Shown piece by piece: positions 2,558 through 19,633 of a stretch of 41,200 nt of DNA; the first letter of the stretch is position 1; each line of letters opens with the position of its first letter. The stretch is from the IMG/VR virus record IMGVR_UViG_3300048592_000919, positions 1 through 41,200 of that record; one strand, given 5' to 3'. The notes under the pieces are model-generated. The model did no database searches and was not told the DNA's origin. It worked only from the letters and a program-made list of their open reading frames with translations. Source of the DNA: a virus. The position numbers and the translations under genes were made by a program.

Positions 2558-3943
2558 ATGAAGTACGATGTCGCCGGGCTCCGTCAGGCCCGTGCAGGCC
2601 TGCAGAGCCAACTGGACGGGTTCGGGCCGATCGACGCCAGCACCACCACGGACCAGCTCGACCAGATGGACGCGATCTCCGCGCAGATCAACGAGATGGA
2701 CCGCCGCATCGCCGCCGCCGAGAACGCGCAGCGCCTGCGCGCGGCCGGCGCCGTTCCGCAGCGTCCGCTCGACGTGCAGCCCGGCAGCGACGACTCCGCC
2801 GACGACTCCCGCCCGGCGCCGCAGCGCCCCTTCGCGCAGGCGCGCGACGCCAACGAGCCGGGCCTGGGCATGGCTCAGATCACCCGCTGCCTCGTGCTCG
2901 GCAAGGGCAACGTCGTCGCCGCGCATCAGTCGGCGGTTCGTCTCTGGGGCGAGCGTCACCCGGCTGCCATGGAGCTCGGCGCCGCGATGCAGACCAACGA
3001 GGGCGCCAGCGGTGGCTTCCTCGTGCCGGAGCGCTACTCGGCAGAGATCATCGACCTGCTCTGGCCGATGACGGTGGTGCGCCGCAACGTGCGGGCGGCC
3101 GGTGGCGAGGTCCCGCTGGTCGGCGGCACCGACAACTTCCCGACGGTGGAGTCCGGCACCAGCGCCTTCTACATCGGCGAGGGCCAGGACATCACCAGCA
3201 CCGAGCCGCAGTTCGGCGTGCTGCGCATGACCGAGCGCGAGATCGCGGCGCTGGTGCCGATCAGCAACAAGCTGCTGCGGCATGCCTCGGTGGCGGTGGA
3301 TCTGATGATCCGCAATATGCTGGTGCGCAGCTTCGCCCAGACCGAGGATCTGGCCTTCCTGCGCGGCGCCGGCACCGGCCCCTCCCCGAAGGGCATCCGC
3401 TACATCGTGCCGTCGGCCAACGTGTTCTCGGCCAACGCCACGGTCAACCTGACCAACATCGATGCGGACGCCCGCAAGGCCGAGCTCCTCATCATGGAGG
3501 CCGACATCCCGCTGACCAACGTCGGCTGGGTGATGGCGCCGCGCACCTTCACCTACCTGCGCGATCTGCGCAACGCCAATGGCGTGCTGGTGTATCCGTC
3601 GCTGTCCGAGAATGTCGGGCCGATGGGCAACGGTGGTGGCGGCGTGCCGGTGCGGCCCATGTGGAAGGGCTACCCGGTCGAGGTCACCAACAACATCCCG
3701 CGCAATCTTGGCGGCAGCTCGGACGAGTCCGAGCTGATGCTGGTGGCCTGGGACCAGTGCATGATCGGCGACAGCTACTCGATCCGCATCGACGCCAGCG
3801 ACACCGCCGCATACGTGCAGTCCTCCACGCTGGTCTCGGCCTTCAGCCGCAACCAGACCGTGATCCGCGCCATCGCCGGCCACGATTTCGGCATGGCGCG
3901 CAGCAAGGGCGGCGTGGTCGTCACGGGCGTCAAGTGGTTCTGA
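2558..3943 (+). CDS. major capsid protein, HK97 fold
   Basis: The 461-residue capsid subunit. Residues 1 to about 115 are helical, charged and rich in Gln/Asp/Ala/Arg, like the delta/scaffold region that the upstream protease removes. From about residue 140 the HK97 pattern follows: EGASGGFLVPERYSAEII, then LLWPMTVVRRNVRAAGG, the E-loop/P-domain region with FLRGAGTGPSPKGIRY, and a C-terminal part ending in QTVIRAIAGHDFGMARSKGGVVVTGV. This is typical of phage_capsid family members. A strong ribosome site (AAAAGGAG, 2542-2549) lies 8 nt before the ATG, fitting high expression. A hairpin follows the stop codon. Confidence 0.95.
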   Translation: MKYDVAGLRQARAGLQSQLDGFGPIDASTTTDQLDQMDAISAQINEMDRRIAAAENAQRLRAAGAVPQRPLDVQPGSDDSADDSRPAPQRPFAQARDANEPGLGMAQITRCLVLGKGNVVAAHQSAVRLWGERHPAAMELGAAMQTNEGASGGFLVPERYSAEIIDLLWPMTVVRRNVRAAGGEVPLVGGTDNFPTVESGTSAFYIGEGQDITSTEPQFGVLRMTEREIAALVPISNKLLRHASVAVDLMIRNMLVRSFAQTEDLAFLRGAGTGPSPKGIRYIVPSANVFSANATVNLTNIDADARKAELLIMEADIPLTNVGWVMAPRTFTYLRDLRNANGVLVYPSLSENVGPMGNGGGGVPVRPMWKGYPVEVTNNIPRNLGGSSDESELMLVAWDQCMIGDSYSIRIDASDTAAYVQSSTLVSAFSRNQTVIRAIAGHDFGMARSKGGVVVTGVKWF

Positions 3944-11296: not shown

Positions 11297-12769
11297 ATGC
11301 AGAGCAATCGCGTCCGCGTCTCGCTGGTCCGTGAGGCCACCATCGGCACGCTGCCGGCCTCCGCCCGCATGCGGCTCGCCCGCTACACGGGTGAGTCGAT
11401 GCAGGCCTCGCCGGAGTTCTTCGTGCCGGAGGAGATCCGCTCCGACCGCATGCAGGTGGATCCGACGCGCGTCGGCCTCAACAACCGGGGTGGCCTCAAC
11501 TTCGAGTTCAGCTACCCGAACGACCAGGCCTGGCTCTCGGAGATCCTGCGCAGCGCCTTCTTCGCCAACTGGTCGAACCTTCCCAACTGGGACAACTCCT
11601 TCGTCACTGGCTCCATCGCTGGCATCACCGGCCAGCAGGTCACGGTGCTCGACCAGTCCGGCAGCGGCGGCTTCGCTGGCACCTCGGTGACGGCAGCGTC
11701 GCTGCTGCGCTTCACCGGCTTCGGTGTGGCCGGCAACAATGGGGTGTATCCCTCCACCGGTACCTTCACCTCCACGACCTTCTCGGCGGTGGGCCTCAGC
11801 ACGGAAGCCTCGCCACCGGCCACGGCCCGCATCAAGATCGTCGGCATCCAGGCGACCTCCGGCGATGTCGTTGCCACCACGACCGGCCTGACCACGACCA
11901 CGATGAACTTCGTGGCCAATGGCTTCCAGGCCGGCATGTGGATCAAGATCGGCGACGCTGCCAACGCCGCCTTCAACTTCGCCAACGCCGCCAACAACAC
12001 CTGGGTGCGGGTCGCGGCGATCAACAGCATCAATTCGATCACGCTCGACAACCTGCCGGCTGGCTGGGCGGCGGACACCGGCACCAGCAAGACCATCCGC
12101 ATCTTCACGGGCGACATCCTCAAGAATGGCCTGACGCGCAACAGCTTGGCCATCGAGCGCTCCTTCCTCGGCCAGACGACGCCCACGCACATCCTGCACC
12201 TCGGCATGGTGGCCTCCCGCTTCAGCGGCTCGCTGCTGCCGCGCCGGGCCTTCACCAGCTCCGTCGAGTTCATGGGCCTCGACACCACGCAGGGCACTGC
12301 CGCTAACGGCACGACCTATGTGGCGGCGCCCGACGAGCCGGTGATGAACGGCAGCGTCTCGGTGGCGCGCATCGCCGAGGCCAATGCGGTGGTGGCCTCG
12401 CCCAACTGGGCGCGGCGCCTGGATTTCAGCATCGACAACAACCTGCGCATGATCGAGTCGCTGGGCGAGGACAACTACGTAGACGTCCAGGATGGCGAGT
12501 GCGCGGTCTCCGGCACCATGGAGACCTACTTCGGCAGCAACGCCTTCTACGCCAAGCTTCTGGCTGGCACCGTCACCAACATCAACTCGCGCCTGATCGT
12601 GGGCTCGCGCGCGATGCACCTGCAGTTCCCGCGCGTCACCTTCCTGGACGGCTCGCCCAATGCGGCCGGCAAGAACCAGGATGTGGTGCTGGCGATGCCC
12701 TGGCGGGCCAGCTTCGACTCGGTTACCAACTCCCATGTGGTGTTCCAGCGTACCGAGTACTTCAACTGA
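11297..12769 (+). CDS. major tail tube protein
   Basis: Encodes 490 residues starting at ATG 11297, with AGGAG 9 nt upstream. It resembles the large tail tube family of siphoviruses (phage_tail_tube_3-like). The start is VSLVREATIGTLPASARMRLARYTGESMQ, a SDRMQVDPTRVGLNNRGGLNFEFSY block follows, and the C-terminus contains FTSSVEFMGLDTTQGTA and VSVARIAEANAVVA...RRLDFSIDNNLR. About residues 105-270 contain Thr/Gly/Ala-rich beta segments (GQQVTVLDQSG, GFQAGMWIKIGDAAN) that look like inserted surface domains projecting from the tube. The position after the terminator and before the chaperone pair supports the call. The gene is followed by a structured non-coding region. Confidence 0.82.
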   Translation: MQSNRVRVSLVREATIGTLPASARMRLARYTGESMQASPEFFVPEEIRSDRMQVDPTRVGLNNRGGLNFEFSYPNDQAWLSEILRSAFFANWSNLPNWDNSFVTGSIAGITGQQVTVLDQSGSGGFAGTSVTAASLLRFTGFGVAGNNGVYPSTGTFTSTTFSAVGLSTEASPPATARIKIVGIQATSGDVVATTTGLTTTTMNFVANGFQAGMWIKIGDAANAAFNFANAANNTWVRVAAINSINSITLDNLPAGWAADTGTSKTIRIFTGDILKNGLTRNSLAIERSFLGQTTPTHILHLGMVASRFSGSLLPRRAFTSSVEFMGLDTTQGTAANGTTYVAAPDEPVMNGSVSVARIAEANAVVASPNWARRLDFSIDNNLRMIESLGEDNYVDVQDGECAVSGTMETYFGSNAFYAKLLAGTVTNINSRLIVGSRAMHLQFPRVTFLDGSPNAAGKNQDVVLAMPWRASFDSVTNSHVVFQRTEYFN

Positions 12770-13036
12770 TGCCGCTGTCCGCTGCGCAGCGCCCGAAAGG
12801 GCTCCGCCCGGCGGACATAAGCGGTCGGGCGCCCCTTCCCCGCTTCCCGGGCGGATTGGGGCTTCCCTGGCCACGGGAGGGCCGGCAAACCGCATTCCGC
12901 CGCCCGCCCAAAGTTCCGTCGCGCGACCGTCCTGTCGCGACGGGAAGCACCGGCCGGTGCAGAGGGGCGGCGGAATCGGGCTCCGCCGCCCCTCCACTTC
13001 TTCGCCCGAGACTCCAACCCCGATAGGAGAACCACA
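12770..13036 (+). other. 267-nt structured non-coding region between tail tube and chaperone genes
   Basis: The longest gene-free stretch of the left arm, extremely GC-rich. Visible elements on the plus strand are: CCGCT+GTCCGC (12772-12782) pairing with GCGGAC+AGCGG (12811-12816, 12820-12824) with a 3-nt bulge and enclosing a GNRA hairpin GCCC-GAAA-GGGC (12791-12802); GCCCC (12831-12835) with GGGGC (12858-12862); CCGTCGCG (12916-12923) with CGCGACGG (12936-12943); the 14-bp palindrome GCACCGGCCGGTGC (12947-12960); and a 13-bp hairpin (12962-12994). It then leads into AGGAGA and the GTG of the next gene. The density of helices suggests a structured RNA, terminator or processing region. Confidence 0.6.
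12962..12994 (+). terminator. 13-bp perfect hairpin downstream of tail tube
   Basis: A perfect 13-bp stem (GAGGGGCGGCGGA pairing with TCCGCCGCCCCTC) with a 7-nt loop ATCGGGC. The following bases are pyrimidine-rich (CACTTCTTC) but are not a clean T-run. It could lower read-through from the abundant tail tube message into the chaperone and tape measure genes, or protect the 3' end of the tube message. Confidence 0.55.
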
Positions 13037-13489
13037 GTGCCCACCGAGATTTCCACACTGCGCATCGACCACCAGCGTGTCCAGGACGGCGAGTGGATGC
13101 CGCTCGGCGACGAGTATGGCGACGTCGAGGTGCTGGTGCGCGGCCCCACCGACCGCTACATGGACGCCATCGGCGCGCGCAGCCGCGCAGCTGCGCGCGG
13201 CCTCGGCGGCGACGCCACCAAGCTGCCTACGGCCGTCTCGCGCCGCATCATCATCGGCTGCGTGAACGAGTTCCTGCTGCTGGACGTGCGCAATCTCACC
13301 AGCAACGGTGAGGCGGTCCCCATCGGGCAGTTCAAGGCCCTGCTCGAGCAGCCCGACTACTACCCGCTGGTGTCCGCCGTGCTCGGCGCCGTGGCGAAGG
13401 TTGGCCAGCAGCGCCCGGAGGATCTCATGGAGGCCATGGGAAACTTCGCGAATGCCTCCGATGGAGCCTCCGACAAGGCGGCGAGCTGA
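13037..13489 (+). CDS. tail assembly chaperone, short (unshifted) product
   Basis: Encodes 150 residues from a GTG start with AGGAGA 7 nt upstream. The sequence is helical and acidic (LRIDHQRVQDGEWMPLGDEYGDVEVLVRGPTDRYMDAIGARSRAA) and contains the 'v...g.w....d..g.ev.vrg....y.......r' pattern of lambda-gpG-type chaperones. It lies directly before a second reading frame without its own good start and shortly before the tape measure gene, the canonical place for the gpG/gpGT pair. Such chaperones coat the tape measure protein and recruit tube subunits. Near its 3' end it carries a -1 slippery heptamer in the correct phase. Confidence 0.85.
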   Translation: MPTEISTLRIDHQRVQDGEWMPLGDEYGDVEVLVRGPTDRYMDAIGARSRAAARGLGGDATKLPTAVSRRIIIGCVNEFLLLDVRNLTSNGEAVPIGQFKALLEQPDYYPLVSAVLGAVAKVGQQRPEDLMEAMGNFANASDGASDKAAS

Positions 13490-13818
13490 AAGAGTGGCTT
13501 GCTGAGGTCGCCGAGGAAGACCCAGAAGCCCTGCAGTTCGCCCAGGAGGTTCTCTCCGAGGCACCGCAGCTAGATCCGGCTTGGCGTTACATCTGGCGGG
13601 CCTGGCTGCGCCTTTCCCTGGAGCGCCCGTTCTACGGCGCTGGTCTCGCTGGCTTGCTGCCCGGCCGCATTCCCTGGCCTCTCATCCAGGAGTGGTGCGA
13701 TCGGGAGCAACTCACTGAGGATCAGGCAGTCTTGCTTGATGCCTGCTTGGTGATGATGGACGGCGAGTTCATCAAGGACCAAGTGGAGCGGCGGCAGCAG
13801 GAGTCGGCGACCAAATGA
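13037..13818 (+). CDS. tail assembly chaperone, -1 frameshift fusion product (gpGT-like)
   Basis: Expected product: 136 codons in the first frame (13037-13444), a slip back by one base, then 124 codons in the -1 frame (13444-13815) to the TGA at 13816-13818, about 260 residues in all. The -1 frame stays open from before the slip site and encodes a plausible protein (WLAEVAEEDPEALQFAQEV, then AWRYIWRAWLRLSLERPF and DQAVLLDACLVMMDGEF) rich in Trp/Leu, like gpT-type domains that contact tube subunits. It has no convincing start codon or ribosome site of its own. Its stop overlaps the ATG of the next gene, so translation of the fusion would deliver ribosomes to it. Confidence 0.83.
13438..13444 (+). 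promoter_or_regulatory. -1 ribosomal frameshift slippery heptamer GGGAAAC
   Basis: The heptamer reads G GGA AAC in the zero frame of the chaperone gene, the exact X XXY YYZ phase for tandem -1 slippage and one base different from lambda's GGGAAAG. Two Shine-Dalgarno-like GGAGG motifs lie upstream in the coding sequence (13417-13421 and 13429-13433). Internal Shine-Dalgarno elements upstream of slip sites are known to raise frameshifting in bacteria (as in dnaX). No strong downstream hairpin was found by eye. Confidence 0.85.
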
Positions 13819-14465
13819 GCGGCAACTTGCGGTTCGCAGCTCGTCAGATCCGTGCATTCGCCGACAGAAGCCTCAGTGATGAGGCTCTTTCCCGCATTCT
13901 CGCTGATGGCGCTCGCGATGAACTCGTGAGCGCCATCAAATCTGGGGAGGCACCCAACAGTTTCGTCAAATACGTTGATGGAGTTGAAGGGGCAGACGAA
14001 TACCGCGTCAAGCCTAATGGCTACATTCTCTATGACTTCAACTATATGCCGGACGCAATCTCTCTGGCGATCGAGTTCTTGCGGGCACGCTCCCCCAAGG
14101 GCGGGCGCGCGCCGCACATGCGTGACATGTTCTTCCTGGCCAATCAGCGCACAGGAGAGCTCATCGAGTACGGCGCTATCAACTATGCTGAGCTGGACCC
14201 GCAAAGCAGTTGGTTCATAGGAAATGCTGCGCCCTACAACCGCAAGGCAGATGTTCAGTTCGTCGGGAAAGAGCGGCTTCGGTTCCGGGTCCCACCTGAA
14301 ATCTACCAGGATGCTTCGGACTTCATCAACAAGACCTATGGAGAGGTCATCCGTGCCCGCCGCTTCTACTCCATCGTATTCCCTGGACAGTACGTTCTCA
14401 AGCAGGGAAGGCGTGAAGGCCAGCGGGTGGAAAGCCCTGCGCTTCTGATCGGGCCGCGTCGTTAG
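13815..14465 (+). CDS. hypothetical protein between chaperone and tape measure genes
   Basis: Encodes 216 residues. I do not recognise the family. It looks folded and mixed alpha/beta: an N-terminal helical part (FAARQIRAFADRSLSDEALSRILADGARDELVSAIKSGE), a central aromatic segment (YRVKPNGYILYDFNYMPDAISLAIEFLRARSPKGG) and a C-terminal VIRARRFYSIVFPGQYVLKQGRREGQR with many basic residues. The start overlaps the chaperone stop (ATGA). Base composition is visibly less GC-rich than neighbouring tail genes, and the first 450 bases of the tape measure gene share this. A minor tail or tail-assembly role is likely from position only. Confidence 0.7.
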   Translation: MSGNLRFAARQIRAFADRSLSDEALSRILADGARDELVSAIKSGEAPNSFVKYVDGVEGADEYRVKPNGYILYDFNYMPDAISLAIEFLRARSPKGGRAPHMRDMFFLANQRTGELIEYGAINYAELDPQSSWFIGNAAPYNRKADVQFVGKERLRFRVPPEIYQDASDFINKTYGEVIRARRFYSIVFPGQYVLKQGRREGQRVESPALLIGPRR

Positions 14466-14479
14466 CTTAGGAGCCTGCC

Positions 14480-17400
14480 GTGGCAACCCGCCTTGAGCAA
14501 ATCCGCGCCGAGCTGGAGGTAAAAGACAATGCCTCGGAGGCTGCCGCTGCAGTGGCAGCTGCCATGGAGCGCGCAGCCAAGGCATATGAGCAATCCGATC
14601 AGGCTGTCCGCAAGGCCAATCCAAGCTTCGAGGCAGTCAACCGGAAGATCGACGAGAATGCCCGCCTGACGGCGCAGCTGACGAAGATCAATAACCAGTA
14701 CGAAGCCTCGGTCCGCGCAGTAAACGATCAGCTCGCCAAGAAGAAGATCAATGACGAGGAGGCCGCAGAGAAGATCCGCCGTCTGACACTCCTGCAGGAG
14801 GCAGCGGTCGCCGCTGCCAAGAAGCAGGCAGATTCGATGGCGCGCACATTCGGCCTGGCGAACGACCAAGCGGAAGCAGTCATTCAGAAGGCCCAAGCGG
14901 TCGAAAAGCAAGTCGATCAGGTCGTCCGGCAGTCGCAGCAAGCGACGGCAAACTGGCGGTTCGCCTTCTTCAACATCCAGGACCTGTTCAACCAGCTGAT
15001 CTCCGGTGGCAGCCCGCTGGTGGCGCTCTCCCAGCAGGGTCCCTCCATCGTCCAGAACCTGGGCGGCATCGCCAATTCGTTCCGCTTGCTGTCAGCCGCC
15101 GTCACCGGCAACCCGATCGGCATTGCCGTCGGCTTGATCGTCACAGCCTTCGGCGCGCTGGCGGCGGCCACGACGCTCTCCGACAACCGCATGGGCAATC
15201 TGCGCAACAGCTTGCGCTTGATCACCACGGACTTCCGCGCTGCCGCCGACGAGATCTCCAAGGACGCCAAGCGCATCGCAGACGCGACGCCAGGCGTCAG
15301 CCGCAGCGACGTGCAGAGCGTCGCTGTCGCGGTGCGTCGCAACGCGCCCTCCGGTCTGCGCGAAGACCTGCAGGCACTGGTCAAGGACGTCCAGGACTTC
15401 TCCCGAACAATCGCCAGTGACTTCTCCGGCGCGACCGAGATGATGGGCCGCGTGCTGCGCGACCCGCTCAGCATCGTCAAGGAGATGGCCGAGCAGCGCC
15501 TGCCGGGCTTCAATGAGCGTCTGCGCGACACCGTGGAGCGCCTGCTGGCGACCAACCAGCGCGCTGCCGCTGCGCAGCTTGTGCTTGAGCAGCTGCGCAC
15601 CAGCACCAAGGGTGCCTCGGAGGATGTGGCGCCGCTGACTGCAGCCTGGCAGAGCCTCGGCAAAGAGTTCGGCATTCTGTTCGGCCGCATCAGTGATGGC
15701 CTCGCGGGCGCGGGCGCCAAGTTGCTTGAGTGGATGGCCGCGCTGGTGCGCATGCTCAATCGCGCCGTTGAGCTGATCCCGCAGCTCGGGCGCCGCGTGG
15801 AGGCAGGGCCGCTGGCGCCGGGTGAGCAGTACGGCGGCGCCGGCACCACAGACTTCCGCACCGCGCTGGCCGACGCCGAGAGCTCCGGGCAGCCCAGCCG
15901 CGTCAACCAGTTCGGCTACACGGGCTTGTACCAGTTCGGCACGGCACGCCTGGCAGACCTCGGACTCTACCAGCCGGCTGCTGGCGAGAGTCTGCGCAGC
16001 AACCAGTGGCTCGGACAGGTCACGGTGCCGGGCTACAGCCCGATGACACAGCAGGAGTTCCGCTTCAACGCAGCGGCGCAGAATGCCGCCTTCGACATCC
16101 ACCTCGCCGACCTCGATCGCGCCATCGATCGACTGATGATCAACGGGCAGCCAGCGCTGGCCTCCGGTGCAACCATCGACGGTCTGCCGATCAACCGCAA
16201 TGGCCTGCGGGCGGTCGGCCACATGTACCCGAGCCTGCTGCAGTCGTTCGTCAACAGCAATGGCCGGCCTCTGCGCGCCGACGGCACGCCTTACGCCGAC
16301 GGCAACGGCACTTCGCCGCTGGACTACTTCCGGGCCTTCTCCACGACGCAAGCGGTGACCATCACGACGCCGCAGGTGCAGGTCGGCAATCCGGGCGACC
16401 CGCCGACCGTGACGCTGCCGGGCGCCAGCGTCTCTCCGTCCATGGACCAGCAGGAGTTTATGCGCCTGCTCGGCATGGGACGAGGCTCGGTCGGGCTCGA
16501 TCTGCCTTCGCTGACGGGCGACCGGCGCGAGCAGATCGAGTACCTCATGGGCCGCAGCAATGCTGCGCTGCCCATGGCAGCTGACGCGCGGGAGACTGAG
16601 GCTCTCTTGGAGCTCCAGCGCAAGCTCCGCCAGGAGCTGGAGGCCACCAAGTCTCCGTTCGACGCCTACATCGAAAACCTGCAGCGCAGCGCAGCGGTGG
16701 CGGAGCAGACCACGCCTGCGCAGCAGGAACTCACCCGTGCCCTGCAGGACTTCGAGCAGAGCATGGCGCGGGCCGGCGTGGTCGTCACGGATCAGATGCG
16801 CAGCCAAGTGCAGGCTGAGGTGCTGCGCAACCTGAACGCAGAGTACCGCAAGGCAGGCGACGAGGTCGACCGCAGCATCGCTGCGCAGGACCGGCTGCAA
16901 GCCGCCTACCAAGGCGGCAGTGCTGCTGTGGCGGAGGCCACCGCGCGCGAGCAGGCCATGGAGGTCGTGCGGCGCTCCGGCATCACTGGCGCCACAGAGC
17001 AGGCTGCCGCCATCGACGCACTGGCCGGCAAGTACCGCGACCTGGCGCGGGAGCAGCAAGCCTCCGTCAGCGCGCAGCAAGCCATGGAGAACCGCCGGCA
17101 GACGGGCCTCGCGACCATCGAAGGCGGCTTGGTCGGCGCTTCCCCGCTGACGCGGCAGCTGACGATGGCGCGCGCCCGCACCGCTGCCGGCATCCTGGGT
17201 CGTGGCGGCAACCTGGAAGACGCCGAGAGCAGCAGCTTGCTGCTTTCCGTGGAGGAGCTGACCCGCGCCCAGTACGAGACGCAACGCCTGCAGACTGCCT
17301 GGGATGACCTGCAGCGCATCGGCGTGCAAGCCTTCGACCGCATCGGCGAGGCCATCACCGAGGCTTTCGCCCAGGGCAAGATTGAGGCGCTGGACTTCGC

Positions 17401-19633
17401 TTCTGTCGGCAAGGCAGTCATCAGCGAGCTCCTGCAAGCCTTCCTCAAGTTCGCTGTGCTCAACCCACTCAAGAACTACCTGTTCGGTGGCGGTGACACC
17501 ACGCTCGGCAGCATCGTGACTGTGCTTGGCGGTGGCGGTGGCGGTGGCGGAGCCTTGCTGTCGGCGCTCAGCGGTGGCGGCGAGATCTCCGGCAGTGCGA
17601 TCAACATCGGCGCCGGCTCTCTGCCGCTGCTCGGCAGTGTGCTCGGCGGCGGCAGCGGCATCTCGGCGGGCGGCACTTACGCGTTCGGCGCGGGCGGCGG
17701 CGCGGCCTCCGGCGGCATGGGCAACTTGCTCACCTACGGCGGCTCCGGCCTCGGCCTCGGTGCGCGGCTGCTCAACTTCGGTGGCTACAACTTCAGCAGC
17801 ATCGGCAGTGCCCTCACCGGCATCGGCGTGCTCTCGCGCTCCGGCATCGGCATGGTGGACAGCTTCCTCAACACGCCCATCAGTTCGCTGCCGGTTAGCG
17901 CAGGTGAGTCAGCGTTCCGCAGTGCAGCTGGCCTCAGCTCCGCGCCGCAGTACACGCTCGGCAACGCCATCGGTGGCGTAGCGGGCGTGGCCGGTGGCGC
18001 CTACGGCATCTACTCCGGCATCCAGAAAGGCGGCATCGGCGGCGGCATCACCGCAGCCGGCGGCGCGATCTCCGCCGGCCTCGGCGCGGCGTCGCTGGCC
18101 AGCGGTGCGGGTCTGCTCAGCTCCGGCGCCACCGCAGCACTCGGCGCGCTCGGTCCTTACGGCTGGATTGCCGCTGCGGTTCTGGCGGTTGTCGGCGCTC
18201 TGCTGCCGGGTGCCAAGCCCAGCAACATGGAGGGCAATGCGCGTGTGGACCTCGGCACAGGCGAGGTCGTGGTGGACGGCCAGACCGGCAAGAAGTACAG
18301 CCAAGCCAACCGCGACGCTGCCCGTTCCATGACGGATCAGGTCTACGACTTGGTCCTGCAGGTCAGCGAGCGCCTGGGCGCCTCCGGCATGTCGGGCGGC
18401 TTCACCATCGGCGTCGGCAACCGCGACGGCATCTACTACAACTACATGGGCAACTCGCGCCACGAGTTCTCCCGCACGGACGATGGCGCCAAGGCTCTGA
18501 CGCGGGAGCTCGTCGAGCGCATCACCATGAGCAACCTGCTCGGTCTCTCCGAGGTGGTTGATCGGGCGCGCGGCGGCATCCGCTGGGACAGCCTGGAGAA
18601 CGCACTCACCGACATCAGCTCCATCGCGGCCGTCACCAACAACGGCAAGCCCACCGAGAACCAGACCATTGCCGCCCGCACGCTGACCTTTGAGGGCAAT
18701 CTGCAAGGTGCCCTGGGTGAGCTGGCGTGGGTGAAGGATGTCTATGAGCCGCTGGTCAACGGCGGCATCAACGACCGTCTCTCCAGCTTCCGCCAGCAGC
18801 TCAAGGCGCTGGACGATGAGTGGTGGCCGCTGATCGAGCGCACCGAGCGCCTGGGCCTCAGCAGCAAGGTGCTGCGCGACACGATGCAGGATCTCAAGGA
18901 CGAGATCATCGCCACGAACGACATCGCAATCCGCAGCACGACGGGCGGCTTTCGCGCGCGGGCGCTTCGCGCCGGCAACCTCACCAATGACCCGGCGGTC
19001 GCGCAGCAGGCCGACCTTCTGACGTTCGATCTGCGAGCTGAGCAGGAGCGCATCGACTACAATGCGCGCATGCGCACTCTGGGCGCCACTGCGGAGCAGA
19101 CCGCCGAAGGGCTGACGGTGCTCGGGGAGGCGCTGGCACTGGAGCGCAACGCCATCATCGCCGGCTACCAGGACATCAAGAAGCAGCAAGAGCAGCAGCG
19201 CGCCGCCACAGCCGCCGGCATCATCAGCTCGGTCGGCGACTATGCCACCAGCTTGCGCATCGGCGACCTATCGCCGCTCTCCGATCAAGCCAAGTACGGG
19301 CAGGCCCGAAGCAACTTTAACTCGGTGCTGCAGCGGGCGCTGGGTGGTGATCCGGATGCGCTGGCCGGCAGCACCTCGGCCATCAGCGAGTTCCTGGCCG
19401 CCAGCCGCGCGATCAACGGCAGTGGCGCCGCCTACGTCGCCGACTACAACCAGAGCCTCGCCTACCTCGAAGGCATTGGCAATCTCTCGCCCGACACGCT
19501 CACGCAGCAGATCTACGTGCAAGAGCAGCGCGACACGCGTGACGTGCTCAAGGAGGAGCTGCAGCGCCTGCGAGAAGAGGTGGTGGCCCTGCGCAGGGAG
19601 GTCGCCATGAACAACTTGGCGCCGCAGCGCTGA
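14480..19633 (+). CDS. tape measure protein with transglycosylase-like domain
   Basis: Encodes 1717 residues from a GTG start with TTAGGAG 6 nt upstream. Residues 1-150 are charged coiled coil. A hydrophobic tape-measure block follows (FNIQDLFNQLISGGSPLVALSQQGPSIVQNLGG, then GIAVGLIVTAFGALAAAT, about 165-235). Near 455-610 sits a soluble lytic transglycosylase-like domain: ALADAESSGQPSRVNQ with candidate catalytic Glu467, then TGLYQFGTARL. A lambda gpH-like C-terminal element (AFDRIGEAITEAFAQGKIEALDFASVGKAVISELL) is at about 950-990, followed by Gly-rich hydrophobic sequence. By the usual 0.15 nm per residue the tail would be about 260 nm long. It sets tail length and probably opens the cell wall at injection. 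Confidence 0.93.
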   Translation: MATRLEQIRAELEVKDNASEAAAAVAAAMERAAKAYEQSDQAVRKANPSFEAVNRKIDENARLTAQLTKINNQYEASVRAVNDQLAKKKINDEEAAEKIRRLTLLQEAAVAAAKKQADSMARTFGLANDQAEAVIQKAQAVEKQVDQVVRQSQQATANWRFAFFNIQDLFNQLISGGSPLVALSQQGPSIVQNLGGIANSFRLLSAAVTGNPIGIAVGLIVTAFGALAAATTLSDNRMGNLRNSLRLITTDFRAAADEISKDAKRIADATPGVSRSDVQSVAVAVRRNAPSGLREDLQALVKDVQDFSRTIASDFSGATEMMGRVLRDPLSIVKEMAEQRLPGFNERLRDTVERLLATNQRAAAAQLVLEQLRTSTKGASEDVAPLTAAWQSLGKEFGILFGRISDGLAGAGAKLLEWMAALVRMLNRAVELIPQLGRRVEAGPLAPGEQYGGAGTTDFRTALADAESSGQPSRVNQFGYTGLYQFGTARLADLGLYQPAAGESLRSNQWLGQVTVPGYSPMTQQEFRFNAAAQNAAFDIHLADLDRAIDRLMINGQPALASGATIDGLPINRNGLRAVGHMYPSLLQSFVNSNGRPLRADGTPYADGNGTSPLDYFRAFSTTQAVTITTPQVQVGNPGDPPTVTLPGASVSPSMDQQEFMRLLGMGRGSVGLDLPSLTGDRREQIEYLMGRSNAALPMAADARETEALLELQRKLRQELEATKSPFDAYIENLQRSAAVAEQTTPAQQELTRALQDFEQSMARAGVVVTDQMRSQVQAEVLRNLNAEYRKAGDEVDRSIAAQDRLQAAYQGGSAAVAEATAREQAMEVVRRSGITGATEQAAAIDALAGKYRDLAREQQASVSAQQAMENRRQTGLATIEGGLVGASPLTRQLTMARARTAAGILGRGGNLEDAESSSLLLSVEELTRAQYETQRLQTAWDDLQRIGVQAFDRIGEAITEAFAQGKIEALDFASVGKAVISELLQAFLKFAVLNPLKNYLFGGGDTTLGSIVTVLGGGGGGGGALLSALSGGGEISGSAINIGAGSLPLLGSVLGGGSGISAGGTYAFGAGGGAASGGMGNLLTYGGSGLGLGARLLNFGGYNFSSIGSALTGIGVLSRSGIGMVDSFLNTPISSLPVSAGESAFRSAAGLSSAPQYTLGNAIGGVAGVAGGAYGIYSGIQKGGIGGGITAAGGAISAGLGAASLASGAGLLSSGATAALGALGPYGWIAAAVLAVVGALLPGAKPSNMEGNARVDLGTGEVVVDGQTGKKYSQANRDAARSMTDQVYDLVLQVSERLGASGMSGGFTIGVGNRDGIYYNYMGNSRHEFSRTDDGAKALTRELVERITMSNLLGLSEVVDRARGGIRWDSLENALTDISSIAAVTNNGKPTENQTIAARTLTFEGNLQGALGELAWVKDVYEPLVNGGINDRLSSFRQQLKALDDEWWPLIERTERLGLSSKVLRDTMQDLKDEIIATNDIAIRSTTGGFRARALRAGNLTNDPAVAQQADLLTFDLRAEQERIDYNARMRTLGATAEQTAEGLTVLGEALALERNAIIAGYQDIKKQQEQQRAATAAGIISSVGDYATSLRIGDLSPLSDQAKYGQARSNFNSVLQRALGGDPDALAGSTSAISEFLAASRAINGSGAAYVADYNQSLAYLEGIGNLSPDTLTQQIYVQEQRDTRDVLKEELQRLREEVVALRREVAMNNLAPQR

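Follow-up and report, generated by a model that had tools for sequence, protein, structure and literature searches.

A backward slip of one base by the ribosome is common in tailed phages, where it allows one gene to yield a tail-assembly helper in two lengths, short and long. The heptamer of phage lambda is GGGAAAG. Lambda G and GT have roles in tail assembly, with a ratio of 30:1 (PMC5009743). Frameshifting measured in two HK97-like chaperone genes is 6–7% (PMC3711429), and in Burkholderia phage KL1 the gp18/gp19 pair carries GGGAAAC and is separated from the tape measure gene by an intervening gene (PMC3483164). Conservation of the frameshift in tail genes of dsDNA phages was described by Xu, Hendrix and Duda in 2004, as cited in PMC3483164 and PMC3711429.

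The window analysed here is the whole 41.2-kb stretch of viral DNA, and its genes include those for portal, protease, capsid, connector, tail tube and tape measure proteins. An overlapping pair of open reading frames in a −1 relation, G and T, sits between the tube and tape measure genes, and one extra gene precedes the tape measure gene. Because of this location the pair is almost certainly, as judged from sequence, a programmed −1 frameshift of phage tail chaperones of the lambda G/GT type. The features of the locus are as follows.

11297–12769, + strand: major tail (tail tube) protein gene (Pfam Phage_tube_2, 9.7e-33; phrog_290)
13037–13489, + strand: G, predicted short tail assembly chaperone of 150 aa with a GTG start (phrog_19222, 7.6e-19); in relatives, homologues lie upstream of the heptamer
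13438–13444, + strand: slippery heptamer G_GGA_AAC, close to the 3' end of G
13444–13818, + strand: T, −1 frame extension of 124 codons that only a frameshift would reach (Phage_TAC_18, 1.7e-9; phrog_3817, 2.9e-14)
13815–14465, + strand: gene for a 216-aa protein between the chaperones and the tape measure (phrog_16336, 6.3e-41)
14480–19633, + strand: tape measure protein gene (Pfam TMP_2, 8.6e-15; phrog_24)

The locus shares with lambda G/GT the order tube, G, T, tape measure, a heptamer near the end of G, a −1 shift, the absence of a start in T, and a T part that is a tail assembly chaperone. It differs from lambda in its heptamer, GGGAAAC, in the 216-aa gene that separates T from the tape measure gene, and in its proteins, which belong to Phage_TAC_18 and phrog_19222. 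The combination of a GGGAAAC slip site and an extra gene ahead of the tape measure gene was reported earlier for KL1 (PMC3483164), and the window is a further case. Achromobacter phage 83-24 (L006) has this combination as well, and its T is a detectable homologue of the window T. In both KL1 and 83-24, however, G stops immediately after the heptamer, whereas the window G continues for another 14 codons. Genes 40–42 of Azospirillum phage Cd (CU468217, L005) include homologues of G (gene 41) and of the protein that follows T (gene 42), and the region also has a homologous T, an in-phase GGGAAAC and a leader hairpin; it differs in that G stops directly after the heptamer and T is unannotated. This T lies at 2995–3375 of CU468217, between genes 41 and 42, and is missing from the annotation of that record. 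T is likely to have been left unannotated in other records as well. The 216-aa protein occupies the same position, immediately behind T, in several of these phages, including Azospirillum phage Cd and the closest relative of the window (L003).

Slip site and reading frames

The G frame reads ATG GGA AAC at 13436–13444, and the heptamer is in exact −1 phase relative to the open reading frame that begins at GTG 13037. From 13444 the −1 frame stays open through 124 codons to TGA 13816–13818, and it overlaps the ATG at 13815 of the next gene. The earliest ATG, GTG or TTG in the T frame is TTG 13654, 70 codons in, and none of the three occurs in the open −1 stretch before the heptamer (13312–13443). 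An earlier note on this DNA had claimed the phase, the length and overlap of the second frame and its lack of a start, and all of these were borne out. Its reading of the locus as a programmed −1 frameshift stands on these three features together with the chaperone homology, the conserved slip site and the fused PHROG profile described below. The note had not recognised the G/GT tail chaperone system.

Each strand of the 41.2-kb window has a single GGGAAAC, and for this reason only ~0.0014 in-phase copies would be expected (our own arithmetic) within the 178-nt stretch where both frames are open. Chance origin is further removed by the retention of a heptamer in −1 phase in 20 other pairs. The other XXXYYYZ sites examined in the window are either out of phase or open in the −1 frame for fewer than 10 codons.

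Identity and conservation of the chaperone pair

The match of T to Pfam Phage_TAC_18 (E = 1.7e-9) is over the curated (gathering) cut-off, and T also matches PHROGs named tail chaperonin or tail assembly chaperone (phrog_3817, phrog_8233). A tail assembly chaperone match is seen in seven of the eight aligned T proteins, that of the window included. The sole profile match of G is phrog_19222, for which no function is given. When the 260-aa GT fusion is compared with phrog_8233, the match covers residues 61–254 and spans the junction at residue 136/137, and it strengthens from 1.8e-6 with T alone to 8.6e-11 with the fusion. By homology with lambda we infer two products, the 150-aa G and a GT fusion of ~260 aa, together with their ratio.

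Relatives were gathered by means of T, the 216-aa protein and a DNA pattern of the leader. Searches with BLASTN using the region and TBLASTN using G gave no matches among phage records, and G alone as a query retrieved no relatives from viral and genome contigs. Altogether 22 distinct G/T pairs were read, including that of the window, from isolates, prophages and metagenomes. The T proteins of the relatives are only ~28–46% identical to that of the window. The −1 frame relation is present in all 22 pairs and an in-phase heptamer in 21, so that the slip site withstands the comparison across relatives that the earlier note had proposed as a check. The heptamer is GGGAAAC in 17 pairs and AAAAAAC in four, always in −1 phase. 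The remaining pair (L025) has no recognisable heptamer: its homologous G/T overlap at 2576–2654 keeps the −1 relation and contains no in-phase X_XXY_YYZ, just a CCTTCC-like sequence. Homology in G ends with the residues ...GN and homology in T picks up at the next residue, L, which places the frame change at the heptamer. Most relatives have the stop of G immediately behind the heptamer; G extends 8 to 20 codons further in the window, L003, L021, L014 and L015.

It is extremely improbable that T is translated from a start of its own, or that the break in frame is a sequencing or assembly indel. General possibility is all that speaks for either, whereas the T frame runs for 70 codons without ATG, GTG or TTG. 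A conserved start at the head of T, which the earlier note had named as evidence that would count against a frameshift, was sought in the relatives and none was found. An indel would not explain the recurrence of the frame relation across 22 pairs, 21 with the heptamer, from isolates, prophages and metagenomes. A CTG at the stop of G was also considered as a start for T and is not conserved in L003.

Candidate stimulators of the shift

Two internal Shine-Dalgarno-like motifs lie just upstream of the heptamer, at the positions given in the earlier note.

13417–13421, + strand: GGAGG, 16 nt before the heptamer
13429–13433, + strand: GGAGG, 4 nt before the heptamer

The note proposed that pairing of these motifs with 16S rRNA sets the frameshift rate in lieu of a downstream structure. 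Both strong motifs are genuinely present, each with a pairing energy to the anti-Shine-Dalgarno of about −9.3 kcal/mol, and two GGAGG inside 36 nt occur at 0.28% of window positions. In bacteria, −1 shifting can be stimulated by an internal Shine-Dalgarno, for example in dnaX (PMC5009743), and one relative (L017) has GGAGGT at ~13 nt. Stimulators of −1 shifts act from a distance of 9–14 nt, which includes that of the L017 motif, and stimulators of +1 shifts from 3 nt (PMC5009743). In the window, however, neither copy falls within 9–14 nt, and the copy at 4 nt is near the spacing of +1 stimulators. Functional stimulators also lack competing motifs just upstream (PMC5009743). E. coli dnaX resembles the window in having a −1 shift on a heptamer with a Shine-Dalgarno-like motif upstream, but in the window the spacing differs, the motif is not conserved and downstream folding is weak.

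The lack of conservation is evident even in L003, which reads CAGAAGACCTCATGGAGGCGGTGGGAAAC at this place and therefore keeps the copy at −4 and has lost that at −16. No GGAGG occurs within 36 nt of the slip site in 10 of the 15 pairs scanned, and in the other five the distances vary (window 16 and 4 nt, L003 4 nt, L014 7 nt, L016 7 nt, L017 22 and 13 nt). Alignments A3 and A4 were too divergent for pattern scans. When the 13 codons before the slip in the window were recoded synonymously, with codons drawn from the same genes, at least two GGAGG appeared in 27% of the recodings, and the anti-Shine-Dalgarno pairing was equal or stronger in ~90%. Across 12 sequences, no spacing class held more of the motif than synonymous recoding would give (combined p above 0.98). 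Control of the rate by the GGAGG motifs is thus very unlikely. From the recodings, the pair is best read as a by-product of the peptide EDLMEA, that is, of Glu codons in a gene that prefers GAG.

Other roles for these motifs were considered and set aside. The arrangement GGAGG-5 nt-ATG could provide an internal start at 13427, but it is not conserved, and a product begun there would still need the shift since this ATG is in the frame of G. In a 91-nt fold (z −1.97), GGAGG pairs with a GCCTCC beyond the slip site, but a ribosome on the heptamer would cover the bases of this helix. The downstream GCCTCC copies are explained by codons of the T frame, and the GGAGG-GCCTCC pairing was dropped.

Downstream of the heptamer, folds of the window give z values of −0.35 (35 nt), 0.37 (50 nt) and −1.78 (70 nt), in fair agreement with the earlier note, which had found no hairpin there. 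RNAalifold found no common base pair downstream of the heptamer in nine aligned sequences. A downstream stimulator in the window, either the small hairpin CTCC-GAT-GGAG ~11 nt past the heptamer or a longer fold at ~+22 to +75, is conceivable but rather doubtful. Several relatives do have such structures, namely strong hairpins 5–10 nt past the slip site in L004 (z −4.2), L010 (z −6.3) and L021 (z −3.8), and a larger fold spanning +5 to +75 in L008, L009, L016 and L026 (z −3.7 to −5.1), and the authors of the KL1 study predicted a downstream structure with Mfold (PMC3483164). Against this stand the low window scores and the lack of a shared pair, and the small hairpin is explained by the codons for LRWS, where synonymous differences separate the window from L003. 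The occurrence of strong hairpins in L004, L010 and L021 and not in the window suggests that stimulators turn over quickly. Neither the upstream GGAGG motifs nor the downstream folds established a stimulator specific to the window, and the heptamer itself is most likely the main determinant of slippage.

A leader hairpin upstream of G

The leader between the tube gene and G contains a hairpin and two short sequences complementary to its loop.

12962–12994, + strand: leader hairpin of G, with a perfect 13-bp stem and the 7-nt loop ATCGGGC
13004–13009, + strand: GCCCGA, first candidate loop target
13019–13024, + strand: CCCGAT, loop target touching the Shine-Dalgarno of G (AGGAG, 13025–13029)

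The hairpin ends 42 nt before GTG 13037. The fold of the 96-nt leader has a z of −3.36, and none of 200 shuffles is as stable. A search of Rfam with the leader returned no family. The hairpin is not a standard terminator, since it is followed by no T run.

Relatives carry a hairpin at the equivalent position, with an apex complementary to bases next to the G Shine-Dalgarno. Leader regions with such a loop-complementary hairpin are the following, with loop and target for five of the relatives.

Window: 12962–13036
L005: 2532–2600, loop TTTGGTCGG, target CCGACCAAA
L008: 1533–1591, loop TTGTCGGG, target CCCGACAA
L009: 1529–1591
L014: about 2510–2591, loop GCACAGT, target ACTGTGC
L015: 2530–2603, loop ATCGTCGGG, target CCCGACGAT
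L021: 1831–1900, loop TGGGCA, target TGCCCA

The loop and target sequences vary between phage lineages yet remain complementary. In tests of this pairing, whose p-values are not blind since the hairpin was noticed before the tests were designed, the longest loop-target matches of the seven loci sum to 54, whereas 5000 shuffles averaged 34.3 and never exceeded 45; when six lineages are re-paired, their own pairings top all others (1 of 720, itself); and the single-locus p is 0.13 for the window and 0.24 for L021, so that these two depend on the group as a whole. Such a hairpin is absent from the leaders of L006 and L010.

Across the whole viral collection the hairpin pattern was found in 11 contigs. 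Ten were checked, and in all of them it lies 41–50 nt upstream of a G that bears GGGAAAC; the eleventh, L036, duplicates contig L023. Among ten aligned leaders, four stem pairs vary in both partners, where shuffles averaged 1.1 and one in 500 reached this count, and within this clade the loop-target helix is nearly invariant.

The leaders that resemble that of the Azospirillum phage (alignment A7: L031, L034, L035, L040, L032, L033, L037, L038, L041 and L004) have a second hairpin further upstream, CCCG-CGACCAA-CGGG, and its loop could form a kissing contact with the TTTGGTCGG loop. A switch between loop kissing and pairing near the Shine-Dalgarno is possible in these leaders. L015 shows a similar arrangement, with CCCGCG-TCCCGAC-CGCGGG facing the loop GTCGGGA.

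Based on these observations, the leader hairpin may be an undescribed leader RNA. The loop would pair with one or two short repeats by the Shine-Dalgarno, forming a pseudoknot or a switch that blocks or opens the ribosome site. Alternatively, the hairpin could possibly be a DNA-binding site with inverted copies, or serve in protection of the mRNA end. On balance, we lean slightly towards the amount of chaperone being set by the frameshift plus a leader RNA, in which a hairpin ~30–50 nt before the start pairs through its loop beside the Shine-Dalgarno.

Model and significance

As for the frameshift itself, the majority of ribosomes would terminate at the G stop (13487), yielding the 150-aa chaperone. 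A minority, estimated by analogy at a few per cent, would have both tRNAs re-pair one base back on G_GGA_AAC and continue in T, giving the GT fusion. By extension from lambda (PMC5009743), G would be in excess, and both G and the minor GT product would act on the tape measure protein, with G coating it and the T part of GT recruiting the tail tube protein; the G:GT ratio would matter for tail assembly.

The comparison assigns the tail chaperone pair of the window to a known system, and it removes as unsupported a tempting claim of control by Shine-Dalgarno motifs. The T half of such a pair is easily missed, as in the annotation of Azospirillum phage Cd. Should the leader RNA prove real, it would add a second, new layer of control over the stoichiometry of phage tail assembly, and one that is directly testable.
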